A DNA stretch of 64,000 nucleotides from Methanohalobium evestigatum Z-7303 (GTDB lineage: Archaea > Halobacteriota > Methanosarcinia > Methanosarcinales > Methanosarcinaceae): NCBI RefSeq assembly GCF_000196655.1, contig NC_014253.1:806001-870000 (forward strand), in the 5' to 3' direction. The notes beneath the pieces are model-generated. The model was given only the letters and a program-made list of their open reading frames with translations, was not told the DNA's origin and ran no database searches. Numbering within the stretch: position 1 is the stretch's first letter; each line of letters starts with the position of its first letter. The position numbers and the translations under genes are program-made. Below are positions 48,759 to 51,070 of the stretch, one piece after another.

Positions 48759-48843
48759 AACATTGTTACTCATCTGGTCAAATATGTCCAGATAATTTTT
48801 TATCTGTTTTTAAAATTAAAAAGGGATTTGTTTTCGTTTTCAG

Positions 48844-49062
48844 TTAGAGGAGATACATATGCTGGTCAAATGAACAGTTTTTGTTTTCTTTTATTATAGT
48901 TAATTTTTCATCTTTGAACTTATCAAAATCAGAATAATAATCTTCATCTTTTTTAATTAAAACCAGAGATCTTTCAGCACGGATATTTTCGACAATTTTT
49001 ATTATTTGGGGTGGAATTTTGGACTCTTTAATAGCTTCATTTAAATATTTAGTTTTGATTTT
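48844..49062 (-). pseudogene. Degenerate open frame, unknown
   Basis: A 72-codon stretch is open between stops but lacks a usable start codon near its 5' end. The translation looks protein-like: KYLNEAIKESKIPPQIIKIV, then RAERSLVLIKKDEDYYSDFD. An ATG slightly upstream (at about 49066) is one frame away, so a frameshift may have removed the start. No family was recognised. It lies next to the transposon remnant, which fits a decaying region. Confidence 0.4.
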
Positions 49063-49093
49063 TCATCTTAACTACAACACACAAAAATATCTC

Positions 49094-49460
49094 TTATAGC
49101 CCTGAAATTACATACCTGACGTACTCCAACGGATAAATCCGTTGGGTTCTGTGGTCGCCATCCATCTTGACGTTGCCACTTGCGGGGCGCCAGTACTCCC
49201 GTACGATGCATCTCTGTCTGCACCGCATCGTTTGTGCTTGACACAAGGCATTGTTTGATGGAACCTGATGATACACAAACAACCGACTTAACAATGTCTT
49301 ACATCAGGCAGCTTGCTCAAAGCAACTGTACACTGAAAGCATTGCTGTATCTATAATACTATATATACTATATAAAATAAAAAAGTTATGGTTGACAAAT
49401 CAATAATCAACGGGGTTGTTTCATCCAACGGTTAGAAACCGTTGGCTTTCACGTACCCCT
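49094..49460 (-). mobile_element. IS200/IS605 (TnpB-type) remnant with paired terminal hairpins
   Basis: Two hairpins with the same stem mark the ends. One is CCAACGGA-taaa-TCCGTTGG at 49126-49145, the other CCAACGGTT-aga-AACCGTTGG at 49425-49445. Between them the minus strand holds a 59-codon open piece (49108-49287). It reads CVKHKRCGADRDASYGS, which resembles the end of the TnpB zinc finger (CG...DRD.NAS). No full transposase is present. The element could be a decayed insertion sequence or a non-autonomous derivative. Boundaries are approximate. Confidence 0.6.
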
Positions 49461-49607
49461 GTTGCCCCACTTTCGTAAAAATAACTCCAATTAGGATTTT
49501 TTAATCCGTTGTAATGGTAAAACATCAGACTGAAATACGATAAAATTTCAGGTAAAAGAGGATATTATGGCCCTTTTTTGGCTTATATATACCTGCAAAA
49601 CAGAACC

Positions 49608-49740
49608 ATGTACAACGAAATGCTTCTGAAAAATAGGATATGCTTGAGTGTATGACGAAGCTGAAATCGAATACATGGATAGATTTCAAAATCTTGAAAA
49701 GGAAGCTGTTGAAAATAAAAGAGGACTGTGGAACAATTGA
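49608..49740 (+). pseudogene. Fragment of a thermonuclease (SNase)-like gene
   Basis: Two frames together give MYNEMLLKNRICLSV and then VYDEAEIEYMDRFQNLEKEA with the ending NKRGLWNN. This is the typical C-terminus of staphylococcal nuclease-like proteins (N..L...G.A.VY....Y...F..LE..A...+GLW). A frameshift at about 49648 separates the parts, and the catalytic N-terminal region is missing. It is a remnant without function. Confidence 0.6.
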
Positions 49741-49869
49741 ATGAATTTAATTAATAATGGATAATCAATAATGGTTATAAAGCCGTTGAAAATTTTAACG
49801 CCATTATAGTATTTAACACTGGAAAAATAAAAGCATCATTTATTATATATATTTACAATTTCATAGTAA

Positions 49870-50056
49870 GGGATAGACAGTAGACGTAGATAACGAGGGA
49901 AAATCTACGCTTGTCTGAAAGTAGTGGACGAGCATTTCAATGATTGAGTGGGGTTCAACCATCGGGGAGATGTGGTTAAAGTAGTCAAAGTGGCCTTATC
50001 TACCCAATCTGTGTAATTTGGGGGAAGTTATACAGGTTGGGTGGCTAATCACCATT
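49870..50056 (+). ncRNA. Candidate structured non-coding RNA
   Basis: A TATA-like TTATATATATT at about 49841-49853 precedes this stretch at normal archaeal promoter distance. A first hairpin pairs 49882-49891 with 49903-49916. A second pairs 50000-50016 with 50028-50044 over 17 base pairs, including three G-U pairs, around an 11-base loop. A closing helix pairs 49970-49978 with 50046-50055. The G-U pairs exist only if the plus strand is transcribed. No protein frame covers the segment and no known RNA family was recognised. Confidence 0.45.
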
Positions 50057-50368
50057 TCATATGTCTGATGTATTACAAATCTACACTCTCAAATCTAAAT
50101 TATCTATATATTATATAGTTGTTCTGGTTTTTTGATTTTGAATAATAGAATTTAAAAAATAGTTTATATGTAGTCCAATTAAAAATCATATTACTTATTT
50201 TTCACCCTGCATCCAGAACTTATTCTACATAGCAAGCATATTGTAAACCGGAACTTCATCAGTCCATGAAACAGCATTACTCGTTGTAATTACGATTGGC
50301 ATTATTATAAATATGCTTACAAAAAGTATAAACGAAAGAGTACTCTATATAAAGTTAAAAAGGAGAAA
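50057..50368. other. Gap downstream of the AIM24-family gene
   Basis: AT-rich and without a supported gene. The minus strand has a short frame at 50225-50302 whose translation starts hydrophobically (MPIVITTSNAVSWTDEVPVY). It could be the remains of an exported protein's signal region, but it is too short to call. Confidence 0.3.
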
Positions 50369-51070
50369 TTATCTTTCACCTTGTTGCTGGAACGTAGATG
50401 CTGCCAGTATTCTGTCTGCAAGTCGAGATAACGGGAGACTCTGAAGATATACTGTACCTGGACCTTTTAACGATGCCAGAAAAACCCCTTCACCTCCAAA
50501 GAGTGCATTTTTAAATCCACCTATAAACTGGATATTGTAGTCTATACTATCAGTAAAAGCAGCAAGACATCCAGTATCTACTCTTAAATGCTCCCCATCA
50601 GCAAGCTCCTTTTTAATTATTGTACCTCCAGCATGTACAAATGCCATACCGTCACCAGAAAGTTTTTGCAAAATAAAACCTTCTCCACCAAAAAAACCAG
50701 AACCTAATCTTTTTGTTAATGCTACATCTATGTCGATACCCTTCGCCGCACAAAGGAAAGCATCTTTCTGGCACAGAATATTGCCATCAAATTTTGCAAG
50801 GTCGATAGGTATGATTTTCCCAGGATAAGGTGCTCCAAAAGCAACAAAGCCTTTATCCTTACCCTCATAAACAAAACTTGTTATAAAGAAACTTTCACCT
50901 GTAAGCATACGTTTTAAACCGCTGAACAGTCCTCCTCCTGTTGAGGTTTGCATTTTAATGCCAGGTCCCATATATGCCATCGCTCCTACTTCCGCCCTCA
51001 CCGATTCTTCTGGGTCCAATTCTACCTCAACAATTTGCATATCGTCGCCTATTATATTATAATCGATCAT
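50369..51070 (-). CDS. AIM24-family protein (TIGR00266 type)
   Basis: 233 residues of beta-rich sequence without signal peptide. The family pattern is visible in [40 protein letters not shown], and [21 protein letters not shown] repeated [20 protein letters not shown] element lies near the C-terminus. The biochemical role is not known; eukaryotic relatives act in mitochondrial inner membrane organisation. It stands alone between the degenerate region and the divergent thymidylate synthase. Confidence 0.88.

Follow-up and report, generated by a model that had tools for sequence, protein, structure and literature searches.

Positions 49868-50053 on the plus strand of the window, the 64,000-bp stretch of the Methanohalobium evestigatum Z-7303 chromosome that we analysed (bases 806001-870000 of 2,242,317; the genome, G000, comprises 2,406,232 bp in 2 contigs), hold one member of what is almost certainly a real family of structured RNA genes. 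On balance we favour, by a modest degree, the reading that this member is a stand-alone gene for a trans-acting small RNA (sRNA), one of about 11 siblings, most of which would be fired together from a promoter carrying a palindromic operator. A first-pass annotation had noticed a possible structured RNA at this place, and its observation was right but understated, as it missed the 11-copy family under a common palindrome. Mechanisms have been worked out for few archaeal sRNAs, and a covarying family of 11 copies that appear to be co-regulated is uncommon and lends itself readily to tests; a single probe would suffice to detect the family, and a single operator to define its regulator.

Two covariance models were used, R1, built from 16 copies, and R2, to which the distant pair of copies L055/L052 was added. 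BLAST found 10 copies in the M. evestigatum genome and 7 in a sister genome of the same genus (G029), which served for copy counts and site comparison, while the search with R1 returned 11 and 9 copies, respectively, dispersed over the genomes and each about 185 nt long. The window copy, with a modelled core of 186 nt, scores 185 bits against R1; the orthologous pair L055/L052 was detected with an E-value of about 1e-7 and scored above 100 bits after its inclusion in R2. Searches of 238 genomes of the class with the covariance models gave no convincing match outside the genus, the weak and isolated hits being in G040 (E = 0.009) and G116 (E = 0.03). A search of 84,980 species for the exact 18-base pattern of hairpin 2 gave 16 stretches, 4 of them from Methanohalobium; none of the remaining 12 contained a copy by the covariance model, although the hairpin alone reached E = 0.009 in one of these (L105). 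Viral contigs contained no exact match to the hairpin 2 pattern and a BLAST search of plasmids gave no match to the RNA. As far as these genome searches reach, the family appears to be restricted to the genus Methanohalobium. The window had no match among the 4227 families of Rfam release 15 in a covariance search at gathering thresholds, as the initial claim of a new RNA had implied, and a permissive search of 49700-50200 returned PK-repBA alone, at chance level (E = 0.3). Papers that pair Methanohalobium with small RNA or transcriptomics, judged by title and abstract, do not concern this RNA, which belongs to a previously uncatalogued family that no described family matches.

Our analysis bears out the initial description, in which a TATA element (49839-49855) precedes about 185 nt that form three hairpins. 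Hairpin P1 (49874-49917) has double changes in 3 of its 10 pairs and carries the loop AACGAGGGAAA in the window copy, where the family consensus is AAUGAGGGAAAA. In L052 and L055 the P1 stem GUAGAG/CUCUAC is replaced by AUGGAG/CUCCAU and the loop, AAUGAGGGGAAAA, is unchanged; conservation of the loop over a changing stem suggests that the loop is the functional part. The linker GUAGUGGACGAG(C) at 49922-49933 consists mostly of invariant columns in alignment A1. Hairpin P2 (49926-49977) has the invariant loop GUGGGG(G)U and a core (49940-49962) in which 95% of the cells are paired and 2 pairs show double changes; its extension, a weaker G-U-rich stem (GC(G/A)..UUU / GGG..UGU), was seen in single-sequence folds only. 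The long 3' hairpin P3 (50000-50044) is predicted to form an uninterrupted helix of 20 pairs in the window copy (50000-50019 with 50025-50044) and has 6 double-change pairs among copies. The count of four G-U pairs in this helix given by the first-pass annotation was exact and its count of 17 pairs was too low. The same annotation had suggested two competing folds involving UCUACCC, a switch that our data do not support; the consensus fold places UCUACCC in the long 3' helix of all well-conserved copies, and GGGGAGAU serves in the main to lengthen hairpin 2. The invariant segments of the RNA also include AGUGGACGAGCG...GUUGAGUGGGG.

The fold energy of the window copy alone (z-score of -2.8 against shuffled sequence) is unconvincing by itself, and it is the multi-copy family with its compensatory changes that makes the structure more than chance. 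In alignment A3, which comprises 19 copies and 31 base pairs over the three hairpins, 94.5% of the base-pair cells are standard, compared to 34-45% when the partners were slid by 1-3 columns. Double compensatory changes were found in 11 pairs, where shuffled alignments had a mean of 4.9 and 0 of 500 reached 11; the covariation score was 0.248 versus 0.177 in shuffles (0 of 500 reaching it). A3 was fitted to the model and so leans towards structure, but the result was similar in an ungapped alignment of the arms made by hand, with double changes in 6 of 13 pairs of the long helix and a paired fraction that 0 of 2000 shuffles reached. The G-U pairs identify the plus strand as the RNA strand, as had been proposed, since 551 of 583 cells are standard on this strand versus 496 on the complement; the plus strand also folds more stably in 17 of the 19 copies. 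Thus, the compensatory changes, which fall on one strand and are found in relatives, define an evolutionarily conserved structured RNA.

Downstream of the modelled core, boxes AAATCTACACTC and TATATAGTT..TTCTGGTTTTTT (50078-50133, plus strand) are present in about 10 of 17 copies and absent from the others, and may represent a 3' extension or a terminator. The CACUC(AA) box (50078-50092) is complementary to the P2 loop sequence UUGAGUG(GGG) (49946-49954), and a pseudoknot or an antisense contact between the two is possible on base complementarity; as the P2 loop is invariant, this contact gives no covariation signal.

Most copies are preceded by a conserved block of approximately 80 bp that consists of a palindrome (consensus GCGTTgAAAATTttAACGC), a TATA-like element (consensus CTTTATAATATTTAACGC) and a proximal TATA element, TTTATTATATATATTTA. 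In the window the palindrome reads CCGTTGAAAATTTTAACGC and lies at 49783-49801; GCGTTGAAAATTTTAACGC is the candidate binding sequence for a regulator. Directly behind it on the plus strand, at 49803-49819, is ATTATAGTATTTAACAC, which combines the distal TATA-like element itself (49803-49815) with a third AACGC-type half site and is found in most copies. The same spacing from palindrome to TATA is found at a protein gene at 2115154. The proximal TATA element (49839-49855, plus strand) is conserved in the aligned copies and, if used, is expected to place the transcription start at about 49866-49874; use of the second TATA-like element, behind the palindrome, would place it at about 49838. By inspection, the distant pair L052/L055 has neither the palindrome nor the TATTATATATATTT element; the distal TATA-like element is not conserved in this pair.

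Allowing up to 3 mismatches, the palindrome occurs at 9 places in the genome, of which 7 are upstream of copies of the RNA, 1 is upstream of a different RNA (in locus L087) and 1 precedes a protein gene, whereas the reversed pattern, used as a control over the whole genome, occurs at 0 places. The palindrome is probably the operator of a transcription regulator, and most of the 11 homologous copies have this upstream DNA in common, as sibling sRNAs would. The second RNA, at L087:5700-5980 on the minus strand (G000:C1:669751-670031) with an ortholog in L088, is about 188 nt long and predicted to be very stable (-68 to -72 kcal/mol), has the palindrome and TATA block upstream and displays the G-rich loops GAGGAGUGGGGG and CAAGCGGGGGCU; outside the genus, it gave short A+T-rich matches alone. 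Thus, at least two types of RNA appear to share one control site. The copy of the palindrome at G000:C1:2115154-2115172 (L089) is perfect and stands in front of the protein gene, whose product presumably resembles a pyrimidine dimer DNA glycosylase.

Comparison with the sister genome revealed 7 copies at corresponding places in both genomes (site pairs L017-L027, L022-L031, L023-L032, L024-L030, L019 or L020 with L029, L025-L050 and L055-L052), with aligned flanks that are mostly 90-95% identical. In the majority of orthologous pairs, conservation is higher in the RNA than in one or both intergenic flanks, as in L093/L094, where the values are 97.6% and, downstream, 52%. The closest relative of the window copy is L026, which matches over 604 bp at 82% and is located elsewhere. 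Segments common to copies vary in length from 0.2 to 1.25 kb. The description of the surrounding 1.6 kb as decayed is correct in part; the stretch also holds, at 49116-49480, a degenerate sequence similar to the 3' end of an IS605-type tnpB, with the hairpin end CAACGGATTTATCCGTTG, and at the matching site of the sister genome 1.55 kb (48823 to 50373) are missing, RNA copy included. A tnpB-like fragment with this hairpin end recurs near loci L022 and L029. Of the AIM24 gene at 50369-51070 of the window, the sister genome retains the two ends around a large internal deletion.

In 8 of the 10 copies found by BLAST (the window, L018-L020 and L022-L025), the RNA and the first gene downstream of it lie on opposite strands, and the flanking genes are unrelated, with products that include an M48 peptidase, AIM24, radical SAM and PLD-like proteins, a response regulator, URO-D, an aldolase and a histidine kinase. 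The earlier proposal of a stand-alone RNA, made from the orientation of the next gene in the window, therefore extends to a family with a common upstream region and unrelated, mostly convergent neighbours. With its predicted own promoter, its intergenic position and its apparent separation from the transcripts of its neighbours, the gene has, by sequence, the features of a stand-alone archaeal sRNA.

A recurrent neighbour is DUF1699 (PF08004), which we take to be the family of the Methanosarcina regulator MreA. The genome has 9 DUF1699 loci, 4 of which are within 160 bp of a copy of the RNA, and a single segmental duplication may have given rise to three of these four copies. At its 5' end (49863-49874, plus strand) the RNA carries the 12-mer ATAGTAAGGGAT, which is also found just before DUF1699 start codons. 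The 7 occurrences of this 12-mer in the genome are in 2 RNA copies, 3 DUF1699 leaders, 1 apparent DUF1699 pseudogene and 1 coding sequence, compared to 0 occurrences of the reversed 12-mer, and none of the DUF1699 leaders that we read from other genera showed it. Few RNA copies have the exact 12-mer, which has drifted in the rest, and it could thus be an initiator or reflect common ancestry with a DUF1699 leader, instead of being a binding site. Pairing predicted between the RNA and DUF1699 leaders was no better than with 56 control leaders (rank 32-56 of 56), which indicates that any link between the RNA and DUF1699 would operate through common sequence, that is, mimicry, and not through antisense pairing. 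An apparent decayed DUF1699 gene at G000:C1:1822882 retains the ATAGTAAGGGAT leader and is present in G029 too. MreA is a global regulator in Methanosarcina acetivorans (PMC12918732), and if the DUF1699 link is true and the family assignment holds, control at the level of RNA would be tied to the regulation of methanogenesis.

We consider it probable that the RNA is a trans-acting regulatory sRNA, and several readings of its origin and function have to be weighed against each other. The dispersed, multi-copy nature of the unit, its palindromic parts and its location next to a tnpB remnant where genes are sparse would suit a non-autonomous mobile repeat (MITE-like) that mimics an RNA gene, but the compensatory changes are specific to the RNA strand, seven copies occupy corresponding sites in two species, the upstream palindrome is at one end only and an inverted-repeat scan found no terminal inverted repeats that pair the ends of the unit. 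The spread of copies as variable-length segments without defined ends or terminal repeats likewise argues against a transposon, and we regard this reading as very improbable. It is just as improbable that the RNA is a cis-acting leader, riboswitch or 3' element of neighbouring genes; the proximity of four copies to DUF1699 genes would be consistent with such a role, yet the neighbours of the copies are unrelated and usually on the opposite strand, which speaks against a leader or riboswitch. An AUG stands in a conserved context within hairpin 2 in most copies and could open a short ORF (M[IV]EWG...), or make the RNA a dual-function mRNA, but differences in the length of the G-runs shift the frame between copies after 5 codons, so that it is not kept, leaving hardly any likelihood for a coding role. 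H/ACA and C/D guide RNAs were rejected, as alignment inspection showed no conserved ACA, C (RUGAUGA) or D (CUGA) boxes and Rfam gave no match. An IS200/IS605 omega RNA was also rejected; no copy is joined to tnpB, and the closest tnpB remnants lie apart from the copies and are not the same from one copy to the next.

Two readings keep the RNA as a functional product and differ in what it does. It could be the structural RNA subunit of an undescribed ribonucleoprotein, with either a housekeeping role or one particular to the genus, that is multi-copy for dosage, which would be consistent with a long, well-folded RNA strongly conserved over 11 copies and with the same upstream region in front of the second, different RNA (L087/L088). 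However, the family is confined to one genus, there are considerable differences among its copies, the sister genome has no copy at the site of one of them, and the operator-like palindrome suggests regulated, not constant, expression, making this role unlikely. The main rival, a possible but not a favoured one, is a trans-acting sRNA that base-pairs via its conserved loops with pyrimidine-rich mRNA stretches, like sRNA154 of Methanosarcina mazei. The invariance of the loops over covarying stems is what such an sRNA would display, and sRNA154 itself acts through two stem-loops (review PMC5867862); on the other hand, the conserved loops of the new RNA are purine-rich and resemble ribosome-binding sites instead of pairing with them, and the DUF1699 leaders were poor duplex partners. 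The purine-rich character of the invariant unpaired segments and their similarity to ribosome-binding sites lead us to prefer, tentatively and with rather limited confidence, a decoy mechanism to antisense pairing with mRNAs.

On our reading, the RNA genes would be transcribed, a single regulator would bind the palindrome and switch the set of copies on or off, and the RNA would act in trans. In the decoy mechanism, the invariant purine-rich loops (AAUGAGGGAAAA and GUGGGGU), the GGACGAG linker and the 5' AUAGUAAGGGAU would mimic ribosome-binding-site sequence and not its complement. The RNAs would be abundant decoys that titrate a factor recognising ribosome-binding-site-like leaders, with the DUF1699 mRNAs as the leading candidates for such leaders, and the many copies would raise the dose of decoy, as do the sibling csrB RNAs in bacteria. 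A complete genus-specific circuit of about 11 siblings and the second RNA, under one palindrome-binding regulator and serving as decoys for the factor of the DUF1699 leaders, would be an archaeal counterpart of CsrB/CsrA made from unrelated parts; this remains a speculative picture to which we give little credence as a whole.

CsrB-type decoys bind and titrate the RNA-binding regulator CsrA. By analogy, the new family would resemble the bacterial sibling CsrB-type sRNAs (PMC6262261) in its duplicated genes, its purine-rich (GGA) hairpin loops and its decoy logic, but it is archaeal, has no homology to them, comprises about 11 copies that are mostly under a common palindrome, and its titration is putative. 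In the same archaeal family, sRNA154 of M. mazei is presumably single-copy, unlike the new RNA with its approximately 11 copies. Like sRNA154 and sRNA162 (PMC5867862), the new RNA is predicted to be a stand-alone intergenic RNA with conserved-loop hairpins and regulated expression; sRNA154 is conserved across Methanosarcina, whereas the new family has no match in Methanosarcinaceae genomes outside Methanohalobium. Candidate weak partial relatives, L056 (G000:C1:661804-661963) and L054 (G029:C65:8466-8617), contain GUAGGGACGAGCGGG...GAGUGGGGUU...GGGGGAGUGUGGUU, and their G-rich block, located directly 3' of the stop codon of a gene, is kept in both genomes.
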